From Morinoia aosen (taxonomy: Eukaryota > Arthropoda > Malacostraca > Amphipoda > Talitridae): a DNA stretch of 64,000 nt. The notes under the pieces were generated by a model, which was given only the letters and a program-made list of their open reading frames with translations, had not been told where the DNA came from and made no database searches. Location: positions 34,838,183 through 34,902,182 of the forward strand of contig CM059560.1 in assembly GCA_030386875.1 (NCBI GenBank), in the 5' to 3' direction. The translations under genes were made by a program, and so were the position numbers. This document shows, piece after piece, positions 10,221 through 39,775 of this stretch. Position 1 is the stretch's first letter. Every line of letters starts with the position of its first letter.

Positions 10221-13200
10221 AGTCACTTTTCATCTCTGCGTGTTTTGTGTAATGCGTCACTTTTCATCTCTGCGTGTTGTGTGTAATGCGTCACTTTTCA
10301 TATCAGCGTGTTGTATGTAATGCGTCACTTTTCATCTCTGCGTGTTGTGTGTAATGCGTCACTTTTCATCTCTGCGTGTTGTATGTAATGTGTCACTTTT
10401 CATTTCTGCGTGTTGTGTGTAATGCGTCACTTTTCATCTCTGCGTGTTGTGTGTAATGCGTAAACTTTTCATCTCTGCGTGTTGTGTGTAATGTGTCACT
10501 TTTCATTTCTGCGTGTTGTGTGTAATGCGTAAACTTTTCATCTCTGCGTGTTGTGTGTAATGCGTCACTTTTCATTTCTGCGTGTTGTGTGCAATGCGTA
10601 AACTTTTCATCTCTGCGTGTTGTGTGTAATGTGTCACTTTTCATCTCTGCGTGTTGCGTGTAATGCGTCACTTTTCATCTCTGCGTGTTGTGTGTAATGC
10701 GTCACTTTTCATTTCTGCGTGTTGTGTGTAATGCGTCACTTTTCATTTCTGCGTGTTGTGTGTAATGCGTCACTTTTCATTTCTGCGTGTTGTGTGTAAT
10801 GCGTCACTTTTCATCTCTGCGTGTTGTGTGTAATGCGTCACTTTTCATTTCTGCGTGTTGTGTGTAATGAGTCACTTTTCATTTCTGCGTGTTGTGTGTA
10901 ATGCGTCACTTTTCATCTCTGCGTTGTGTGTAATGCGTCACTTTTCATCTCTGCGTGTTGTGTGTATTGCGTCACTTTTTATCTCTGCGTGTTGTGTGTA
11001 ATGCGTCACTTTTCATTTCTGCGTGTTGTGTGTAATGCGTCACTTTTTATCTCTGCGTGTTGTGTGTAATGCGTCACTTTTCATCTCTGCGTGTTGTGTG
11101 TAATGCGTCACTTTTCATCTCTGCGTGTTGTGTGTAATGCGTCACTTTTCATCTCTGCGTGTTGTGTGTAATGCGTCACTTTTCATCTCTGCGTGTTGTG
11201 TGTAATGCGTCACTTTTCATCTCTGCGTGTTGTGTGTAATGCGTCACTTTTCATCTCTGCGTGTTGTGTGTAATGCGTCACTTTTCATCTCTGCGTGTTG
11301 TGTGTAATGCGTCACTTTTCATTTCTGCGTGTTGTGCGTAATGCGTCACTTTTTATCTCTGCGTGTTGTGTGTAATGCGTCACTTTTCATCTCTGCGTGT
11401 TGTGTGTAATGCGTCACTTTTCATCTCTGCGTGTTGTGTGTAATGCGTCACTTTTCATCTCTGCGTGTTGTGTGTAATGCGTCACTTTTCATCTCTGCGT
11501 GTTGTGTGTAATGCGTCACTTTTCATTTCTGCGTATTGTGTGTTATGCGTCACTTTTCATTTCTGCGTTGTGTGTGAAGCGTCACATTTCATTTCTGCGT
11601 GTTGTGTGCAATGCGTCACTTTTCATTTCTGCGTGTTGTGTGTATTGCGTCACTTTTCATTTCTGCGTTGTGTGTAATGCGTCACTTTTCATTTCTGCGT
11701 TGTGTGTAATGCGTCACTTTTCATTTCTGCGTGTTGTGTGTAATGCGTCACTTTTCATTTCTGCGTGTTGTGTGTAATGCGTCACATTTCATTTCTGCGT
11801 TGTGTGTAATGCGTCACTTTTCATTTCTGCGTTGTGTGTAATGCGTCACTTTTCATTTCTGCGTTGTGTGTAATGCGTCACTTTTCATTTCTGCGTGTTG
11901 TGTGTATTGCGTCACTTTTCATTTCTGCGTTGTGTGTAATGCGTCACTTTTCATTTCTGCGTGTTGTGTGTAATGCGTCACTTTTCATTTCTGCGTGTTG
12001 TGTGTAATGCGTCACTTTTCATTTCTGCGTTGTGTGTAATGCGTCACTTTTCATTTCTGCGTTGTGTGTAATGCGTCACTTTTCATTTCTGCGTTGTGTG
12101 TAATGCGTCACTTTTCATTTCTGCGTTGTGTGTAATGCGTCACTTTTCATTTCTGCGTGTTGTGTGTAATGCGTCACTTTTCATTTCTGCGTGTTGTGTG
12201 TAATGCGTCACTTTTCATTTCTGCGTTGTGTGTATTGCGTCACTTTTCATTTCTGCGTTGTGTGTAATGCGTCACTTTTCATTTCTGCGTTGTGTGTAAT
12301 GCGTCACTTTTCATTTCTGCGTGTTGTGTGTAATGCGTCACTTTTCATTTCTGCGTGTTGTGTGTAATGCGTCACTTTTCATTTCTGCGTTGTGTGTAAT
12401 GCGTCACTTTTCATTTCTGCGTGTTGTGTGTAATGCGTCACTTTTCATTTCTGCGTGTTGTGTGTAATGCGTCACTTTTCATTTCTGCGTGTTGTGTGTA
12501 ATGCGTCACTTTTCATTTCTGCGTGTTGTGTGTAATGCGTCACTTTTCATTTCTGCGTGTTGTGTGTAATGCGTCACTTTTCATTTCTGCGTTTTGTGTG
12601 TAATGCGTCACTTTTCATTTCTGCGTGTTGTGTGTAATGCGTCACTTTTCATCTCTGCGTTGTGTGTAATGCGTCACTTTTCAATTCTGCGTGTTGTGTG
12701 TAATGCATCACTTTTCATCTCTGCGTTGTGTGTAATACGTCACTTTTCATTTCTGCGTGTTGTGTGTAATGCGTCACTTTTCATCTCTGCGTGTTGCGTG
12801 TAATACGTCACTTTTCATTTCTGCGTGTTGTGTGTAATGCGTCACTTTTCATCTCTGCGTTGTGTGTAATGCGTCACTTTTCAATTCTGCGTGTTGTGTG
12901 TAATGCGTCACTTTTCATCTCTGCGTTGTGTGTAATGCGTCACTTTTCATTTCTGCGTGTTGTGTGTAATGCGTCACTTTTCATCTCTGCGTTGTGTGTA
13001 ATGCGTCACTTTTCAATTCTGCGTGTTGTGTGTAATGCGTCACTTTTCATTTCTGCGTTGTGTGTAATGCGTCACTTTTCAATTCTGCGTGTTGTGTGTA
13101 ATGCGTCACTTTTCATTTCTGCGTTGTGTGTAATGCGTCACTTTTCATTTCTGCGTTGTGTGTAATGCGTCACTTTTCATCTTTGCGTGTTGTGTGTAAT

Positions 13201-13656
13201 GCGTCACTTTTCATTTCTGCGTGTTGTGTGTAATGCGTCACTTTTCATCTCTGCGTTGTGTGTAATGCGTCACTTTTCAATTCTGCGTGTTGTGTGTAAT
13301 GCATCACTTTTCATCTCTGCGTTGTGTGTAATGCGTCACTTTTCATCTCTGCGTTGTGTGTAATGCGTCACTTTTCATTTCTGCGTTGTGTGTAATGCGT
13401 CACTTTTCATTTCTGCGTTGTGTGTAATGCATCACTTTTCATTTCTGCGTTGTGTGTAATGCGTCACTTTTCATTTCTGCGTTGTGTGTAATGCGTCACT
13501 TTTCATTTCTGCGTTGTGTGTAATGCGTCACTTTTCATTTCTGCGTTGTGTGTAATGCATCACTTTTCATCTCTGCGTTGTGTGTAATGCGTCACTTTTC
13601 ATCTCTGCGTTGTGTGTAATGCGTCACTTTTCATCTCTGCGTGTTGTGTGTAATGC
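10221..13656. repeat. Satellite array, 34-bp unit with 32- and 35-bp variants
   Basis: About 3.4 kb of head-to-tail units, roughly 100 copies, with core GTCACTTTTCATYTCTGCG followed by a (TG)TTGTGTGTAATGC segment. The main unit is 34 bp. A variant lacking one GT dinucleotide is 32 bp, and a variant with GCGTAAAC in place of GCGTCAC is 35 bp. Variants are spatially ordered. 34-bp CATCTCTG units dominate at the left, with 35-bp variants interspersed at 10450-10620. CATTTCTG units follow, and 32-bp units become dominant toward the right. Alternation of 32- and 34-bp units with a CAATTCTG subtype at 12650-13320 gives higher-order repeats. Open frames of up to 124 codons are artefacts of the stop-poor unit. 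Confidence 0.97.
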
Positions 13657-15615: not shown

Positions 15616-16140
15616 CAGGGTGTTCCAAAAGTGCGCACCATACAGATTTTTCAAAAATACATATGTATATTAATTTTATAGAACATAATCATAACAGATG
15701 CTTCAATTGTCCACCTTCTACATTGACGCATGCATATATTGCCTTTATAAAACTTTCTTTTACTCTTTTGAGGATTTCAGAGTTGTTCCTTTCGCCCTCA
15801 GGTGTTTTCGCAGTTTTCAAATCATCAAGAGTGTGCGGACGATTCTGGTACACAACAGATTTGAGATGTCCCCAAAGGAAACAGTCAAGGGGGGATAGAT
15901 CTGATGATCGGGGTGGCCACTCCTTGGGACTTCTTCGCCCAATCAACGGTGGTTTCCGCTCAAGATGATTATGGTTGAATTCTTGAGCTACAGAGCGATA
16001 TGTTTCCTCATCTTTTCCAAACATAAAAACTCACACAATTTCTTGTACTGTTAGTTTCCCACCCATATCAGATCTAACCTGAAACGTAAAAAAATAAATG
16101 CAAAGTATTGTATGGTACGCGACTTTTGGGACACCCTTTT
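15616..16140. mobile_element. Non-autonomous Tc1/mariner-type element, internally deleted
   Basis: The terminal inverted repeats are readable: the left end begins CAGGGTGTTCCAAAAGTGCG and the right end, reverse-complemented, carries AGGGTGTCCCAAAAGTCGCG; both continue into ACCATACA. The dinucleotide TA flanks each side (15614-15615 and 16141-16142), matching the TA target duplication of the Tc1/mariner superfamily. The ~525 bp interior holds an internally deleted transposase gene on the - strand. It probably moved using a transposase supplied by a full-length relative. Confidence 0.88.
15689..16066 (-). pseudogene. Deleted transposase (N-terminal HTH fused to C-terminal DDE part)
   Basis: The - strand frame starts at ATG 16066 and reads MGGKLTVQEIV, a TGA stop (16033-16031), then VFMFGKDEETYRSVAQEFN. 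This is the start of the helix-turn-helix segment typical of the DUF4817-type insect transposases. After about 35 residues it jumps to WPPRSSDLSPLDCFLWGHLK, the conserved C-terminal DDE block (around the last catalytic Asp), and ends KHLL followed by a stop. The catalytic centre between these parts is missing, which removes most of the usual ~350 residues, so the product cannot be active. Only one premature stop interrupts the retained parts. Confidence 0.82.
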
Positions 16141-18604: not shown

Positions 18605-18930
18605 ACCTGCTGACCCGCTCACGAGCCCACTGACCCACTCACAGGCCCATTGTACCTATTGACCCGCTCACGAGCCCACTGACCCACTGACCCACTCACA
18701 AGCCCATTGTACCTACTGACCCGCTCACGAGCCCACTGATCCACTGACCCACTCACAAGCCCATTGTACATACTGACCCGCTCACGAGCCCACTGACCCA
18801 CTGACCAACTCACAAGCCCATTGTACCTACTGACCCGCTCACGAGCCCACTGACCCACTGACCCACTCACAAGCCCATTGTACCTACTGACCCGCTCACG
18901 AGCCTACTGACCCACTGACCCACTGACCAG
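18605..18930. repeat. 57-bp minisatellite abutting the first Ig exon
   Basis: About five to six units of 57 bp built from CCCGCTCACGAGCCCACTGA, further CCACTGACC blocks and CAAGCCCATTGTACCTACTGA. The period is 19 codons, so an open - strand frame runs through it. The array stops about 20 bp before the acceptor AG at 18949-18950. It therefore supplies the sequence where the branch point and upstream part of the polypyrimidine tract should be. Confidence 0.9.
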
Positions 18931-18950
18931 CTCGTGGAGTGTGCTCGCAG

Positions 18951-19153
18951 GCCGGGCGCTCAACATCACGGCGTTCGAGGTGCCGGAGTGGGTGGAAGCG
19001 GGCGCGAGCGCCTCGCTGCGGTGCTCCTGGACGCCCCACACCAGCAGCATCTGGGCGCTGCGGTGGTACCAGGGTCTCAGGGAGATCTACCGCTGGACGC
19101 CCAGCAAGCGCAACCCCATGCAGATCTTCCATCACCCCAACCTCACTGTCAAT
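18951..19153 (+). CDS. beat: beat-like gene, Ig domain 1 exon (first half)
   Basis: This is the first recognisable coding exon of a beaten path family gene. Beat proteins are immunoglobulin-domain ligands that regulate axon fasciculation and target recognition. The frame reads RALNITAFEVPEWVEAG, then ASLRC with the first Ig cysteine, then ALRWYQGLREIYRWTP. The last segment is the Beat signature, matching the usual SVKWYKGRREFYRYTP, and NPMQIF follows. Acceptor GTGCTCGCAG|G gives phase 1 entry; donor AAT|GTGAGT leaves phase 0. The exon is far more GC-rich than its surroundings. It contains an N-linked glycosylation motif NLT before the end and NIT near the start. The signal peptide exon must lie upstream and was not found. 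The exon tail is duplicated in tandem downstream. Confidence 0.92.
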
Positions 19154-19560
19154 GTGAGTTGCAGCCCCATGCAGATAGTCCTTATCTCCTATCTCGATGT
19201 CAGCGTGAGTTACAATTCCAAGTAGATATTCCACTAACCCCAACCTCGATGTCAACTTGAGTTGCAACCCTATGTAAATATTTTTTATCTCCTATCTCAA
19301 TGTCAGAGTGAGTTGCAACCCTATGCAGGTATTCCGCTAACCCCAGTCTCGATGTCAGCGTGTGTTACATCCATACGTAGATGTTCCACCAACCCCAACC
19401 CCGATGTCAGCGTGAGCTGCGGCCCCATGCAGATATTCCCTATCCCCAACCTCACGGTCAGCATGAATTACAACCCCATGTAGATATTCCACCAACCCCA
19501 ACCCTTACGTCAGAGTGAGTTACAACCCCATGCAGATATTTCACAACTCACACCTCACCG
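19111..19560 (+). repeat. 51-52 bp tandem repeat made from the exon 3' end plus splice donor
   Basis: The last 43 bp of the exon (CAACCCCATGCAG ... CTCACTGTCAAT) and the first intron bases (GTGAGTTG) recur about eight times with a 51-52 bp step. Donor-equivalent sites fall at 19154 (GTGAGT, the presumed real one), 19205 (GTGAGT), 19257 (TTGAGT), 19308 (GTGAGT), 19360 (GTGTGT), 19412 (GTGAGC), 19463 (ATGAAT) and 19515 (GTGAGT). The first repeat step is 51 bp, so splicing at 19205 would insert 17 residues in frame. A TAG in the next copy (around 19222) ends the open frame. Confidence 0.9.
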
Positions 19561-22500
19561 TCACTGATAGGGGTTGAGAGCTCATACATGTGTGTTTATT
19601 ATGGTAAGGTCTAGCGTAAGTTGATGTTTCATCAAGATGTTTTACGGCTCTGTGTTTTTTAATAGGAAATAGTGCTTAATTCTGTATTGGTTACGCAGAG
19701 CGCTGGTATAGTTTTGTCCTGTTGTTTATTCTGGCGCAGTTTTGTGCATTTCTCAAGCTTTGTACGTTAAGTACCCATATGTTTGAAATATTCATGGAGC
19801 AAATATTTATTTTGTTTATTTATTTTTATACAATTTGATTCATATTCAGAGCACAGACGTTTAGGTACTGACTCTGATTTTTTAAATATCTAATTTTAAA
19901 TTGAATACCACCAAAACACGCGGGTAACACGAAACATACTCTTTTTATTCAATAACATAGAAACGAAGGTAGTGCATGTTTTCGACAGCAAAATAATGTG
20001 CATCACTTTCTGCAATGATGCTTGTCCATGACAGCGCTGCTAGTTTCCTACTTTTTAATGCCGTCTAAAGAATGTTATCTTTTTTACACAAACTTTGTCC
20101 CATGGCGTCCGATTTAACAGAAACTTGAATTGGCACCGTAATATGAGTAGAAATCTGGTGCTTACTTCCTCAGTTGATTTCATTTCTCAAGAATGATATC
20201 CCGTTAATTAAAACTTTATTCAATGAGAGTAACAATGTTGCTCCTACCGGGAAGGACTTTCTTCTTACACATCAGGAGACACATTCGGCCTCAAATTATA
20301 TGATGTTGTGTTCTCAGCTGGGACCAGATTCTTCCTGAGTTAGGAAACTTGAATAATCTCAGTGTTATCTCACAGAACTCTACGGAAAGAACCTCTACTA
20401 ATTCAAACTCTGAGGTCCATCAATTTCTTTCATTAGATCGGGTTAATTTCATTCCCTGAAGCTGGCTCGTCCTGCTTCACTCTAGCAGGACGTAGAAACG
20501 TACAATCGTCAACCTTTGCAGAGCGGGGAATAGCTACATTTAAATATAGGATAACAGAATGGCTTCATTTGAGTGTACCAGCTTAGAAAGATATGAAACA
20601 AACGTGTAGTTAACTCGTATTCCAATGTTGAGATAACCAACTTTGATCAAAGTTTTTAATAGAAGGTTAACAGCAGCGACTGTAATCTTCCCCATGATTC
20701 ACATGGAGGAGAACACCCCTCCAACAAGCCGCTCCTATGATCTTTTAAGAAGCTTGGTGCCTGTACCTGAGCAACTTTGCTCCTTTGTCTCCGGCTGCTG
20801 TTTTAAAAATTCTATCGGGCCCAGGAACAATCTCATGAATAAAATAATTTCATTGAGAATTTTGGAGGTTTTTAACTGAGCTTCCACGAGACCGTTGCTG
20901 GCGAGCGCCTCAAAGACTCGCTGCAAAGTAATTGCCTGTGAGCCTCCGTCTCGAAGGCCTGGGTTTGGAGAGGGTGCCAAGCTCTAACAACTCGATACAG
21001 GTGGAGTGTACGTTTTATTGTGACTATAGTATTTTCCAAGCCCCTCAAAAGCCCGCTGATATTTTTTTCTAATTTTTAGTCTTTTTTCATTGTTGCTGTG
21101 AGACAAGTGCAGTAGCTTTGTTGCAGTGCGTTGGAATTTTTGAGTGCACATCGAGCTCACAACCTTTTTTTCGGTGGCTGTGCTTTTGTTAGCACTGGAG
21201 GTGTAACGCGGAGATGGCACTGGTGCTAGGGTGACCATGCCTTCATCAGCATGGTAATTAGTGCATGACGATGAGGGATGAGGTTGCTGGGGTGACTATT
21301 GTCACCAATTGCAAAGAAATTTGTTCACGCGGTCGTATGGTATGAGTTTCGAGCCATCTTCAACTGAGGTATTTAGCACTGCGCTTGATGATACGTTTTG
21401 TGGTACTGATTCTCCTGCTGTAGAGCCGAGTAGCGTAGTAATACAGTGTTCTTATCTTCTGGTAGTTAGTGCGCTATTAAAGTTGTTTTAATAACCGCAT
21501 TTATTTTCACAAATCCTGGTGCTTTATCTCCGAAGACGCTACGTTGGCGATTCATCAGTGCGTTTAAAATTCATAGACTAATATTTTTTATAGCAGAATG
21601 TACACAAGAGAGCAACATTTCAGCGACTTTAATACAGCTCGCTCCGCTGGTAAAGGAATGCGCAAGCATCTCGATGAGACAAAATGGTAAATTGTGAATA
21701 AAAAATTAAAGACAAAGACACTCATTCGAAGAGGTCAGTTGAATGGTAAGCTGTCTGCCTCTACGAAAAAAAGAGAAAGGAATGAAAGATGCGGCCAACC
21801 TAACAACAAATCTAAGCCCACAACAAACTCCTGCTACAAGTGTTGCAAATTCTGCGGTTGAGAGCTTGAGTGACCACTGCTGAGCGCAAAGTCCCCAACA
21901 TACTCTGGAGAGGACGGACACCATCAACTCTAGTGTGCTCTCTGAGTATAGCTTATGAATCGCATAAATCCCCTAGGAGAGCCAAGTCTTCAAAATTCTC
22001 TTATGAACAAACCCACACAGCGCACTCCCAAGGGTAACAATTACCTACTAATGTGTTTATTTTATTATCTTATGAAAATTTATTGAACAGTGCTGTCATA
22101 GTTTAATATGAGCAAGTTGGGTGGAAGGCATTGATGGACAATTTTCAGCCCTAATTTCTGATGTGTTCATCATACCAGAGTACATCACATGCAAGTAAGG
22201 TGCTAAAGGTGCTGGTATATATAGCAAGCTAACACTATGCTTAAAGTCTATTGATGTGATTATCACCATAAGTGTTATAAATTCAGTGAGGTAGAGTCAT
22301 CGTTAGTTTCCTAATATATCCTCTGCACTATTCTATTATATCTTTATTCTTCATATACCTTAGTTGTGTTGACAGTACCACACTTACGTTGTTTTGATGT
22401 TAGTGTCGTATTAGCGTTGCCTAACCCAAAAAACGAAGAAAACCAAATACTGATTGCATTCCAAGCGTATTTCTCATTTTTAATTTAGGTTTCATTTGTG

Positions 22501-24969: not shown

Positions 24970-25105
24970 CCCCTGAAGTCGTCCCGAGGTGAGGTGCAGA
25001 TCACAGACGTGCGGCACGGCGCGGCGGGTCTCTTCCGCTGCGAGGTCTCCGCTGAGGCGCCGGCCTTCAGGACCGTCTATGAGGAGAAGGAGCTCAAAGT
25101 CATCA
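24970..25105 (+). CDS. beat: beat-like gene, Ig domain 1 exon (second half)
   Basis: Encodes PLKSSRGEVQITDV, then AAGLFRCEVSAEAPAFRTV, then EEKELKVI. The GLFRCEVS.EAP.F.TV segment is the hallmark of the Beat first Ig domain: the second cysteine is in FRC and the SAEAP loop follows. Acceptor CCTCCCTCCAG|C enters in phase 0, matching the preceding donor. Donor ATCA|GTGAGT leaves phase 1. GC-rich relative to its surroundings. Unlike its neighbours it has no tandem repeat at either boundary. Together with the exon at 18951 it completes Ig1. Confidence 0.92.
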
Positions 25106-26579: not shown

Positions 26580-26880
26580 TACTTTATCTCCTCCCCATCT
26601 CTTCAGCAGCACTATTTCACATCTGTTCGCTAGCATTTCCCCAGCTCTTTACAAGCTGTTCTAAAGCGCTTTTTCAGCTCTTTGCAAATGCTCTCCAGTG
26701 TTTCACCAGCTGTTCCCTAGGGCTTCCCAGCTCATTAGCAGCTGTCTCCCAGCTCTTTACCAGATGTTCTCCAGCGCTTTCCCAGTTCTACATAAGCTGT
26801 TTTACAGGGCTTCCCAGCTCTTTCCCAGCAGTCTGCCAGTTCTCTACCAGCCGTCCCTTACATTCCCCAGCGCCTAAAAT
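26580..26880 (+). repeat. Diverged ~29-bp pyrimidine-rich repeats with acceptor-like CAG ends
   Basis: Imperfect units built from CAGCTCTTTNCCAG, CAGCTGTTCTCC and CAGCGCTTTCCCAG recur. Longer matches such as GCTGTT...GGGCTTCCCAGCTC are spaced 87 bp apart (26709 and 26796), three times 29. Each unit has a pyrimidine run ending in CAG, resembling the real acceptor GTCCCCAG|CGCTTCCG of the exon at 26909. This may be an expansion of acceptor-derived sequence; the divergence makes the origin uncertain. Confidence 0.6.
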
Positions 26881-26908
26881 AAAATTATGATTTACTGCCC
26901 GTCCCCAG

Positions 26909-27042
26909 CGCTTCCGAGATCGGGTCCCCAGATCGAGGGTGTCCAGCCCCAGTACAGGGAGGGTGACTGGGTCGACGTCACCTGCACTGCTGGGCCTGGA
27001 CGGCCTGCCCCGCTGCTGGACATGCTGGTCAACGGGAGGCAG
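26909..27042 (+). CDS. beat: beat-like gene, Ig domain 2 exon (first half)
   Basis: Encodes LPRSGPQIEGVQPQYREGDW, then VDVTCTAGPGRPAPLLDMLVNGRQ. In Beat proteins Ig1 is followed by a LPxxGPxI linker, then YxxGDxxxVxCTS and LTWYING-type segments, and this exon follows that order. The acceptor CCCGTCCCCAG|C completes the split codon from the previous exon (phase 1). The weak donor GGCAG|GTCAGC leaves phase 0. The Trp normally found in the Ig c-strand is replaced by Met (LDMLVNG). The donor lies in the first unit of a 21-bp tandem repeat, so the exon end is less certain than its start. Confidence 0.85.
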
Positions 27043-27180
27043 GTCAGCATTAACGGGCAGCAGGCCAGCATTAACGGGCAGCAGGTCAGCATTAACGGGC
27101 AACAGTTCAACATTAACAGGCAGCAGGTCAGCATTAACGGGCAGCAGGTCAGCATTAACTGTCGGCGAGTTAACACTAGA
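27031..27180 (+). repeat. 21-bp tandem repeat containing the exon's splice donor
   Basis: Seven units of the form AACGGGCAGCAGGTCAGCATT start at 27031, 27052, 27073, 27094, 27115, 27136 and 27157. The first contains the exon end AACGGGAGGCAG and donor GTCAGC. CAG|GTCAGC recurs at 27085, 27127 and 27148; the copy at 27064 is CAG|GCCAGC. The 7-codon period leaves the frame open through every unit (NGQQVSI heptapeptides), so any of these donors would extend the protein in frame. Confidence 0.92.
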
Positions 27181-27489: not shown

Positions 27490-27754
27490 CCCGACCACTT
27501 GGAGCCGCAGTCGGTGCAGCGAGTGGCGGCGGCCGACAGCCTGTCCATCTCGAGACTCCATCTCCGCTTCGTGCTGCGCCACTTCCACTTGACGGAGGCG
27601 AGTGGCGACGTGGCGAGGGTGCGCTGTGTATCCAGGATACCGGGCATCAATTACGAGGAGTCCAGTGAGGCCATTCTGAGCGCCAAGCCGCGGTACCTCG
27701 CCGCCGGCATGGACGGCAGAACGGCCGGAGCCGCGGCGCGCCTCCTCCCTCCAG
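27490..27754 (+). CDS. beat: beat-like gene, Ig domain 2 exon (second half) and linker
   Basis: Encodes HLEPQSVQRVAAADSLSIS, then RLHLRFVLRHFHLTEASGD, then VARVRCVSRIPGINYEESSE. Beat family Ig2 domains have LxLxFxxxxxHFxxGxxxLxCxAxI ... YxxSSE here, so the match is specific, and the second Ig2 cysteine is in VRC. The rest is a GC-rich Ala/Arg/Gly linker ending LLPPG. Acceptor CCACCACCGCAG|C enters in phase 0, consistent with the preceding donor; donor CTCCAG|GTACGG leaves phase 1. Confidence 0.9.
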
Positions 27755-27902: not shown

Positions 27903-30900
27903 TGCACAGATGTTTTTCATTTTTTGCATGTTTTGGGTATCCGCGCACCTCCTCCTTTCAGGCACATCACGGCAGGGTCGATATGAATGCTCACACGTAA
28001 AATAATAAAAAGATGCCCCGAAGACCCTAACTAGAGAACTGAAGGACACTAAATGGACGTTTCTGTATGTGTTTTGTTTGTAGTTTTTGACATTTTTTTT
28101 CAGTGCAAGAAATCTGGAGTTCGTGGACTTCTGCGATGTTTGTAAATGAGCTTTTGAGTTTGAGAGGATCAACTAAAAAACTAATTATTTATATACTAAA
28201 TGTTAATAATTACAGGAAAATCCACACAATAAACGTTAAATTTTGATTATGTCGATGTATTTAAGGGAAGGTTTATAATTTTTATCATATCCTGATAGGG
28301 GATCCATATTCAAAAAGGTTTACTTGTCATAATTCATGATGATGTGTCTTTCGTTATCCAAATGAGAACAGTTTTAAGTTAGAACAATAATTAATTCGTT
28401 AAAGCTGTTTTCAAACGAACAGTTTAAATGGTTATTTTTTTTCTGAAACCCGTTTTGTTTAATGATAATATTGTGGGGAATTTTAATCATTATAAATGCA
28501 TTGTAATTTGTAAAGTTCCTGGTATTGTATGATGTTCAGGTAACCAGTTCACAGAACGTAACTGGGGACAAACACACGAACCAATAAACAATAATTATTT
28601 TATAGAAGGACAACTTTAGACCCACTCTTCTAGTTGCATATATTCACAGTAAACACGAGTGTGTAACGTGTTCAGTGTACGAGTATACTGTGCAGTTCTT
28701 ATCCCACACATGTACGGGCTGTGCGCCCTGGCAGTCTGTGGGCTGCAGGTTTTTTGACGTTTTACTCTGCTTTGTCGGCTATGCACTTATTGAATGTTCG
28801 TTGTGGTCTTTTAGGCATGAATATATTTTAGAACCTATGAATTGATAAACCCTATTTTTTATTGATATAAAGGGGTCATGTAGAGGCAGCTCGATAATAA
28901 AGGTATAGTGTTTTACCATTCAGTTTAAGAAATACAGAGATTTTGTCTACTTGGCGTGAGTATTCATTGTCCTTCATTATATAATGTGCGCTAAGAAAAG
29001 TGGTTAATTTAAAAATGTTGTAGTTTGTAAAATATTAGTGCTAAAAGACTGATATAGGTTTCATTGAAAAAAGCAAGGCTTAAAGTGTTATTTCATTTCG
29101 TTAATTTTGTCTATTTGGCATGTCAAGAGGACAGAAACAAGAATTAATTTGGTAAGAGTTTAATTAACGGTGATGAAACGAAATCAGTGAGGAAATTGTC
29201 TGTTGAGACACAGATAAAGAAAACTACTGTGTTCATTTCATTCTCAAATAAGAATTTTATTTCAAACCATATAAAATGCAATGTCATCAAGAAATCTCAC
29301 CGCCGGATAAAGATCAGAGGTTATTATTTTAGGGCTGAATAGAAAACACAAGCGCTGATGAAATATTGGTGGATTACATCATTTCTAGTGATGAATATCA
29401 TATTTATTTCTTATCACATTTATAACATAAAATTTAAAATACTGCTCTTTTAAATGAAATCTATTTCAGCCTTTTACACTAATATTTTACAAACTAATAC
29501 ATTTTTAAATCGGCTTCTTTTTTAGCGGATGCCCTGAACTACAGAAATTTTCTCAACTTGTAGATCTTCAAAGCGAAAAAAATGGACATTCATGTTATCA
29601 GTGAAACAATGCTGAAGAGATTATATTCAAACAAAAGCTTCATATTTTTTTCCCCTTAACATGTCTTTTAAAAGTTTTACACAAATTTTCCCGAACCAAT
29701 TACCAACAAATTTTCCATAAGCTGGCGTTAATTTCCATTAAAGAGTACCAACTATTCTCACAAACTAACGCTAGTTTCCCATCTGAACTTTCTTCGTTAT
29801 CCCTAATCAACTGGTACCAAATTTCCCATAAACTGATGTCCAGATACCGCCCAGCTCAAGTACCAAATGGTAAGCGTTAAGGCCCGAACGTACGCACGTA
29901 CGTACGTGAGCGTGCATGCGTAGTTATTAAGTGTATGTGACTGGAGTTATTAAGGTATTAAGTGCAAGTTCAGGGTAAGTGACTGGAAACATTGATGCGA
30001 ATGGGCCAATTTCATCGAGATATTTAAGTAATGAAAAACTGTACTGTGAAATTTAGGCCTATTTTTTCCGACAAATTAAAATATTTATTTTTTCCAAACT
30101 TCAAAATTGACGTTTCCCAAAGCTAAGTATTTATAAAGTTTGCCTCCATTTTCTGATCGTGAAGACAATAGATGTTCCGAAGCCGCTGCTTGCGGCATCT
30201 CGTTAACTAAATTAAAATGAAAGGATTAAGTTTATAGATACTTGGAATCTCATCTCACTAACTGCCCAGGGTTTTTTGTAGTTCATTTTATTGATTTTTG
30301 CATCGTATTTGAGGCTATTATTTATGAAGGGCTAAATCTTATAAAATTAAAAGTTGTCTGGTAAAACAAATGCAGCAAAACAACACGAAAAAATTAAAGT
30401 GGGTCTCTAATCCGTGTCGAATAGAGACTCAAATAATTCGTGCAAAAACATATTTTTTCTGATTTATTGACATCGGTGACCAAAAAGTCGATTCAGTATA
30501 GTTTGGATATTCGCAAAAGTGTAGTTTTCTCCCTCATACTTCATCAATAAGGCAATGCATTAGCAAAAGCTTGAAATACTTGTACGGGATTGAGACAAAT
30601 TCATCGGAGGTTCATTTCGCGTCGGCTTCAAGCCTTCAACACATCTTCCTGCTCTCTCCTCCCTTAGTCCGTCCTGCAGCTCAAATGTCAAGGCGGGCGA
30701 AGGTCGATTGATGCCGTCCGTGTAAGCCGGGGAGTTTCGATGGTAATAGTTGAAACTTGTAAAGTCAGTGTGGCAGAAGCAAATTATCTTCTCCAGGCGC
30801 GACAGTGACCGTCGAAGTGCATCTCATCGACTCCCTAAAATGAGAACGATAATCATTAACTCACATTGAGGGAATTTGGTCGAGTTCAACTGTTTCAAGA

Positions 30901-37469: not shown

Positions 37470-38460
37470 ACACAGTTGTGTGGAGTCCTGCATTTGTGAT
37501 GAACTGTGCAGCGCTCTGCATTTGTGATGAACTGTGCAGAGCTCTGCATTTGTGATGAACTGTACAGTGCTCTGCATTTGTGATGAACTGTGCAGTGCTC
37601 TGCATTTGTGATGAACTGTGCAGTGCTCTGCATTTGTGATGAACTGTGCAGAGCTCTGCATTTGTGATGAACTGTGCAGCGCTGTGCATTTGTGATGATC
37701 TATGCAGTGCTCTGCATTTGTGATGAACTGTGCAGAGCTCTGCATTTGTGATGAACTGTACAGTGCTCTGAATTTGTGATGAACTGTGCAGAGCTCTGCA
37801 TTTGTGATGAACTGTGCAGTGCTCTGCATTTGTGATGAACTGTGCAGAGCTCTGCATTTGTGATGAACTGTGCAGCGCTCTGCATTTGTGATGATCTATG
37901 CAGTGCTCAGCATTTGTGATGAACTGTGCAGAGCTCTGCATTTGTGATGAACTGCACAGTGCTCTGCATTTGTGATGAACTGTGCAGAGCTTTGCATTTG
38001 TGATGAACTGTGCAGAGCTCTGCATTTGTGATGAACTGTGCAGTGCACTGCATTTGTGATGAACTGTGCAGAGCTCTGCATTTGTGATGAACTGTGCAGC
38101 GCTCTGCATTTGTGATGATCTATGCAGTGCTCTGCATTTGTGATGAACTGTGCAGAGCTCTGCATTTGTGATGAACTGTACAGTGCTCTGCATTTGTGAT
38201 GAACTGTGCAGTGCTCTGCATTTGTGATGAACTGTGTGGAGTTCTGTATTTGTGATGCACTGTGCAGAGCTCTGCATTTGTGATGAACTGTGCAGAGCTC
38301 TGCATTTGTGATGAACTGTGTGGAGTTCTGTATTTGTGATGAACTGTGCAACGCTCTGTATTTGTGATGAGCTGTGCAGTTCTCCGTATTTGTGATGAGC
38401 TGTGAAGTGCTTTGCATTTGTGATGAGCTGTGCAGTGCTCCGTACTTGTGATGAGCTGTG
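37470..38460. repeat. 28-bp minisatellite (about 35 units)
   Basis: Unit TCTGCATTTGTGATGAACTG plus TGCAGAGC, 28 bp. The diagnostic variant GATGATCTATG recurs at about 37694, 37890 and 38114, 196 and 224 bp apart (7 and 8 units), showing block duplication. Because 28 is not a multiple of three, the long - strand frames (up to 273 codons) cycle through a 28-residue repeat per three units; they are repeat artefacts. Confidence 0.95.
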
Positions 38461-38617
38461 CTGTACTATGGAGTGCAGCGTGGTGCAGTGCTATGAAGTG
38501 CGTTTCTGCGCTGCGGCACAGCTGTGCGACAGATATTCTTCGTGAACCAATTGTTTGTATTTCGTTTTATACAGGGGCTATATTCCTCTTGAGTCTGCTT
38601 TGGCATTACTGTATGTC

Positions 38618-39775
38618 GTGGCCTCACCACGCAACATGACCGTGCCAGATGTTGTGGCCTCACCACGCAGCATGACCGTGCCAGATGTTGTGGCCTCACC
38701 ACGCAACATGACCGTGCCAGATGTTGTGGCCTCACCACGCAGCATGACCGTGCCAGATGTTGTGGCCTCACCACGCAACATGACCGTGCCAAATGTCGTG
38801 GCATCACCACGCAACATGACCGTGCCAAATGTCGTGGCATCACCACACTATACGACCGTGCCAGATGTTGTGGCCTCACCACGCAACATGACCGTGCCAG
38901 ATGTTGTGGCCTCACCACGCAACATGACCGTGCCAAATGTCGTGGCATCACCACGCAACATGACCGTGCCAAATGTCGTGGCATCACCACACTATACGAC
39001 CGTGCCAGATGTTGTGGCTTCACCACGCAACATGACCGTGCCAGATGTTGTGGCCTCACCACGCAACATGATCGTGCCAAATGTCGTGGCATCACCACGC
39101 AACATGACCGTGCCAACTGTCGTGGCATCACCACACTATACGACCGTGCCAGATGTTGTGGCCTCACCACGCAACATGGCCGTGCCAGATTTTGTGGCCT
39201 CACCACGCAACATGACCGTGCCAAATGTCGTGGCATCACCACACTATACGACCGTGCCAGATGTTGTGGCCTCACCACGCAACATGACCGTGCCAAATGT
39301 CGTGGCATCACCACACTATACGACCGTGCCAGATGTTGTGGCCTAACCACACAACATGACCGTGCCAGATGTTGTGGCCTCACCACACAACATGACCGTG
39401 CCAGATGTTGTAGCCTCACCACACAACATGACCGTGCCAGATGTTGTGGCCTTACCACACAACATGACCGTGCCAGGTGTTGTGGCATCACCACACAACA
39501 TGACCGTGCCAGATGTTGTAGCCTCACCACACAACATGACCGTGCCAGATGTTGTAGCCTCACCACACAACATGACCGTGCCAGATGTTGTAGCCTCACC
39601 ACACAACATGACCGTGCCAGATGTTGTGGCCTCACCACACAACATGACCGTGCCAGATGTTGTGGCCTTACCACACAACATGACCGTGCCAGGTGTTGTG
39701 GCATCACCACACAACATGACGGTGCCAGATGTTGTGGCTTCACCACACAGCATGACCCTGCCAGATGTTGTAGTG
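38618..39775. repeat. 36-bp minisatellite (about 32 units)
   Basis: Unit GTGGCCTCACCACGCAACAT plus GACCGTGCCAGATGTT, exactly 36 bp. The left half (to about 39350) uses CACGCAACATG, with interspersed CACACTATACGACC units forming higher-order blocks. The right half uses CACACAACATG, with a six-unit (216 bp) duplication marked by GTGCCAGGTGTTG at about 39470 and 39686. Being a multiple of three without stops, the array gives long frames on both strands (263 codons +, 449 codons -). Confidence 0.96.

Follow-up and report, generated by a model that had tools for sequence, protein, structure and literature searches.

Tandem repeats across two exon-intron borders of a beat-like gene carry copies of its splice donors

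Tandem repeats at exon-intron boundaries have been described in human segmental-duplication genes, where they are reported to give alternative splicing, with 27 intron modifications (PMC2812944). In the RdRp gene of potato, a new intron is reported to have arisen when a segment spanning an intron-exon boundary was duplicated in tandem (PMC4974935). The two arrays presented here lie at the ends of two exons of a beat-like gene. Their units fall within the 15–100 bp given for minisatellites (PMC3618361), and both arrays (19111-19570 and 27031-27177) extend across an exon-intron border.

As in the human genes, minisatellites are placed at exon-intron boundaries, where they are able to change splicing. 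The human repeats average four copies of a 30-bp unit, whereas the present arrays hold eight units of 51–52 bp and six to seven of 21 bp. According to the same report, transcripts support altered splicing in the human case and repeat number varies between paralogs, whereas our arrays are known from a single DNA sequence (PMC2812944). The likeness to potato RdRp lies in a duplicated segment that crosses an exon-intron border and takes splice signals along. There, the border reported is that of the first intron and second exon, on the acceptor side, and the outcome is a new intron; here it is a donor border, present in many copies within an existing intron (PMC4974935). Titles and abstract openings in the open-licence PMC literature yielded no case of an amplified donor in insects. 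The idea in the original prediction that such repeats are a birth mechanism for spare donors is reasonable, although mechanisms of this kind are already on record. The locus adds to this known kind of boundary repeat, and donor-side repetition occurring twice in one recognition gene is what makes it distinctive.

Exons and family of the gene

The window, i.e. the whole 64,000-nucleotide stretch of DNA that was analysed, contains four exons of the gene:

18951..19153, + strand: exon A, encoding the first half of Ig1 in the beat-like gene and ending GTC AAT/GTGAGT
24970..25105, + strand: exon B, encoding the second half of Ig1 (FRCEVSAEAPAF), with a GTGAGT donor that has no array
26909..27042, + strand: exon C, encoding the first half of Ig2, with the donor CAG/GTCAGC
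27490..27754, + strand: exon D, second half of Ig2, 3' end uncertain

Twelve starts were tried for exon C, four of which stayed open, and only the one at 26909 is preceded by AG. Joined together and counted from 18953, exons A, B, C and D form a single open frame of 245 residues. When this protein was compared with 177635 solved-structure sequences, the only matches at E <= 0.01 were Beaten path Vb and Vc (PDB 9np7, 9nsf). The match to Vc has an E value of 1.7e-17 over query residues 3-210 of 245, and that to Vb one of 4.9e-13 over residues 3-156. Similarity therefore spans both Ig domains, as is expected of the Beaten path (Beat) family. Vb and Vc likewise have two Ig domains, and Vc is similar across all four exons, its alignment leaving no extra query residues at either junction. 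Neither protein is extended by a long insert where the two Ig1 halves join; at the Ig2 junction, only Vc is aligned through.

Taken by itself, exon A matches Vc and Vb weakly (E values of 0.032 and 0.017), behind a top match (E 0.013) to a designed protein that has nanobody-like Ig domains and is unrelated. In Pfam, Ig_3 lies barely over its curated cut-off (30.2 vs 30 bits) and V-set barely under (25.6 vs 26 bits). Judged from its sequence, the gene is beat-like and of the nerve-wiring type; the label 'insect-like' derives from the gene family only. Both the beat-like identity and the pairing of exon ends 19153 and 24970 that had been proposed are supported by these comparisons. The proposal had further placed the insert after a 'conserved NPMQIF block'. 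Here 'conserved' overstates the case, as the Vb and Vc alignments are weak at that stretch.

Beyond 27754, the 3' end is uncertain. The end of exon D (CTCCTCCCTCCAG/GTAC, 27755) resembles an acceptor-looking CTCCTCCTTTCAG/GCAC about 207 bp downstream, at 27943-27965.

Donor arrays at the Ig1 and Ig2 exon ends

The Ig1 array begins within exon A, its first unit consisting of the final 43 bp of the exon together with the donor, and an equivalent arrangement is found at exon C. The repeats and donors are located as follows:

18626..18931, + strand: 57-bp tandem array in the intron, 5.4 copies, 95% matches
19111..19570, + strand: tandem array of 51–52 bp units, eight full and one partial, from the unit alignment
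19154..19159, + strand: donor of copy 1, GTGAGT, an exon end consistent with the family
19205..19210, + strand: donor of copy 2, GTGAGT, adding 17 codons in frame
19223..19225, + strand: TAG in copy 3, a stop in frame with the exon, which makes donors 19308 and 19515 non-productive
19308..19313, + strand: donor of copy 4, GTGAGT, downstream of the TAG
19515..19520, + strand: donor of copy 8, GTGAGT, downstream of the TAG
27031..27177, + strand: second array of exon end plus donor, with six similar 21-bp units followed by a seventh that has diverged

Tandem Repeats Finder placed the Ig1 array at 19111-19544, with a period of 52, 8.4 copies and 71% matches. The alignment of its eight full units and partial ninth (19111-19570) has a mean column identity of 81%. 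Both analyses confirm the predicted set of about eight copies of exon end and donor at a period of 51–52 bp. The four intact GTGAGT copies were also found exactly where they had been predicted, and within 19101-19560 the hexamer occurs only at 19154, 19205, 19308 and 19515. At the donor, the other full units read TTGAGT (copy 3), GTGTGT (copy 5), GTGAGC (copy 6) and ATGAAT (copy 7); the GT itself is missing from copies 3 and 7, and the hexamer is altered in copies 5 and 6. The edges of the array are sharp, with an ungapped identity to the consensus of 17% in the 52 bp upstream and 18% in the 51 bp downstream. Comparing the edge of exon A with the 600 bp downstream gave a score of 30; in 200 shuffles of those 600 bp, scores averaged 10.6 (s.d. 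1.6) and rose no higher than 19. Pairwise, the units including the partial ninth are 60–80% identical, a level of divergence that makes the array look old or fast-decaying, and unhomogenised.

Copy 7 (19420-19470) is open in the exon register and reads GPMQIFPIPNLTVS, near the exon's own NPMQIFHHPNLTVN. Arrays lie on either side of exon A, with 57-bp units upstream and 51–52 bp units downstream. The 57-bp array stops about 20 bp before the exon, and the acceptor itself is not a copy.

In the Ig2 array, the first unit is made up of the last 12 bp of exon C and nine intron bases. CAG/GTCAGC is intact in four units (27043, 27085, 27127 and 27148). The other sites read GCCAGC at 27064 and TTCAAC at 27106, leaving units 2 and 4 without GT, and unit 7 has a weak CGA/GTTAAC at 27169. 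The whole array is in frame and free of stops, and its four good donors would add 0, 14, 28 or 35 residues of the VSINGQQ type. The first six Ig2 units are far more alike than the Ig1 units, and the Ig2 array is probably the younger of the two. Upstream of exon C lies a C/T-rich array with CCAG units (26618-26855). The exon C acceptor (26902-26913) has 11 of 12 bases in common with one stretch of this array, at an irregular spacing.

The window as a whole is dense in repeats. Merging 31 Tandem Repeats Finder rows by hand gave 21 separate arrays, which cover 13.6% of it, or 4.9% when the three arrays over 900 bp are left out. Long minisatellites are found at 10222-13656 (34 bp x103), 37488-38461 (28 bp x35) and 38613-39771 (36 bp x32). 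A score of at least 30 against the downstream 600 bp was reached by 332 of 3167 sampled 50-mers and by 53 of 289 GC-rich ones; at least 19 was reached by 404 (13%) and 68 (24%), respectively. Given this density, two of four donors lying inside arrays is unremarkable. The probability is 0.013 against the arrays under 900 bp (4.9%) and 0.09 against all arrays (13.6%), for a set of four donors that was chosen post hoc, and we do not claim an enrichment of arrays at donors. The exon B donor is at background, its score being reached by 40 of 200 shuffles, and comparison of the four acceptors with shuffles, as a search for acceptor-side arrays, gave z values of only 0.2 to 2.2. The resemblance between the exon D donor and 27943-27965 scored 15 (z 8.2, reached by none of 200 shuffles). 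As a third case of a copied donor it was rejected, since 79 of the 289 GC-rich 50-mers in the window (27%) attain that score. Rfam gave nothing at gathering scores, and Pfam nothing at E <= 0.01 for ten other open frames, out of 91 in all. The frame 15689-16030 (- strand), also without a Pfam match at E <= 0.01, contains SSDLSPLDCFLWGHLKSVVY, which we take to recall transposases of the Tc1/mariner type.

Frames, strength and conservation of the copied donors

Splicing from 19205 would insert 51 nt, i.e. 17 codons (VSCSPMQIVLISYLDVS), in phase 0 and without a stop, between LTVN and PLKSS. By sequence, this alternative is just as the original prediction had it. The unit that follows donor 19205 translates as VSYNSK and then meets the TAG at 19223-19225; therefore, 19308 and 19515 would yield premature stops, which agrees with their having been predicted as non-productive. 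Read alone in the exon register, five of the seven full downstream units (copies 3 to 6 and copy 8) contain a stop. The Ig1 insert carries an extra Cys and a hydrophobic stretch.

Computed pairing with U1 is -5.2 kcal/mol for 19154, -6.2 for 19205, 19308 and 19515 (via a bulge) and -5.4 for 19412. The copied GTGAGT donors thus pair slightly more strongly than the first, and U1 pairing by itself leaves the downstream Ig1 donors possible, as they are not obviously weaker. Donor consensus tables favour A at -2. Among the four GTGAGT donors, only that of copy 1 has A at this position, and none has G at -1.

Selection on the copied Ig1 donors was not supported. Across the eight full units, the donor columns agree with the consensus at 90% and the remaining columns at 83%. 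Among 47 six-column windows, the donor window ranks fourth, tied with six others, and ninth when the exon copy is left out; the top-ranked window overlaps it by five columns. The open frame of copy 2 needs no selection either, as this unit was open in 51% of 20,000 shuffles. The view of the copies as used alternative donors or as adaptive length variation is consequently unsupported, with donor columns little better kept than others and an open copy 2 expected about half the time.

Among the three forms scored against Beaten path Vc, the form without inserts fits best with 66.9 bits, followed by the form with the Ig1 insert with 63.4 and the Ig2 +14 form with 57.6. Against Vb, the Ig2 +14 form scores slightly above the plain form (54.1 vs 52.3 bits). 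Protein-level constraint on the Ig2 units was not supported either: relative to the unit consensus, four nonsynonymous and one synonymous codons were counted in units 2-6, and five and one in unit 7. These are raw counts, and two of the four nonsynonymous changes in units 2-6 strike the donor GT.

Proposed origin and use of the copied donors

We hypothesise that minisatellites were seeded across the exon-intron borders and have since been ageing, largely neutrally, with the first donor mainly used and the later copies acting as decoys or minor alternatives; we regard this as likely. At Ig1, a segment over the border of exon A and its intron, made up of the donor with 43 bp of exon before it and a few bases after it, would have been duplicated in tandem, after which slippage or unequal exchange would have brought the number of units to about eight. 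Of these, the most upstream one would have been kept as the exon end because it is coding, while the other units turned into intron. The spliceosome would mainly pick 19154, giving a family-typical Ig1. The downstream donors would be decaying duplicates, of which 19205 may yield a minor isoform that is 17 residues longer; products from 19308 or 19515 would bear a premature stop. The same process would have recurred, probably more recently, at the Ig2 donor 27043.

Largely neutral repeats of this kind are supported by the broken downstream Ig1 units, donor columns that are not clearly better kept, the sharp array edges and the Vc match with copy 1 as exon end, and also by the mostly nonsynonymous Ig2 changes and the loss of GT from Ig2 units 2 and 4. 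The U1 pairing, the fourth rank of the donor window among 47 and the gain against Vb for Ig2 +14 count against them. In reporters in a human cell line, the first of two consensus donors is reported to be mostly used (PMC6783452). This preference, although from another organism, would fit continued use of 19154. The same report describes earlier evidence on competing donors as conflicting, which counts against the neutral explanation (PMC6783452).

The copies could instead be productive donors, giving Beat isoforms with recognition loops of variable length (Ig1 +17; Ig2 +14, +28 or +35). Both arrays do offer in-frame, stop-free alternatives with donor hexamers identical to the first, both inserts sit between conserved parts of an Ig domain in the Vc alignment, and the Ig2 +14 form has its slight advantage against Vb. 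However, an open copy 2 is expected by chance (51%), the Ig2 unit differences are mainly nonsynonymous, the Ig1 insert brings in an extra Cys and a hydrophobic stretch, and the Vc score falls with either insert; we consider productive use unlikely. A bolder form of the idea is that both Ig exons whose ends fall within a domain finish in a donor repeat able to expand. The arrays would then be two independent 'length dials', Ig1 with +17 and Ig2 with +14, +28 or +35, by which a neuronal recognition protein varies its loop length through donor choice, new choices being born by repeat expansion. This we hold to be very unlikely.

Donors 19308 and 19515 might also serve as a dosage switch, being used in some conditions to produce premature-stop transcripts destined for nonsense-mediated decay. 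Two GTGAGT donors past the TAG, with computed U1 pairing at least equal to that of the first, are what such a switch would use; yet the donors are without clear special conservation and the reporters are described as preferring the first donor (PMC6783452), making a switch highly improbable. Finally, the order of events may have been reversed, with an intron array existing first and its first unit recruited as exon end, so that the exon grew into the repeat. Copy 1 is 71–78% identical to each other unit, the same as these are among themselves, and hence the comparison of units is compatible with either direction. What speaks against it is that, with copy 1 as exon end, the alignment to Beaten path Vc has gaps of 3 and 1 close to the junction, leaving Ig1 some four residues short and no extension visible; we judge an array-first origin very improbable. 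Seeding across the borders, followed by largely neutral ageing, remains our preferred explanation.

The gene offers a clear natural example, present twice, of how a repeat that expands over an exon border supplies spare donors in finished form; a decayed array and a more uniform, in-frame one stand side by side. If a downstream donor is used, the locus would give a direct view of how alternative donors and length variants of a recognition domain arise. If none is used, it would provide a natural test of how cells choose the first among many near-identical donors.
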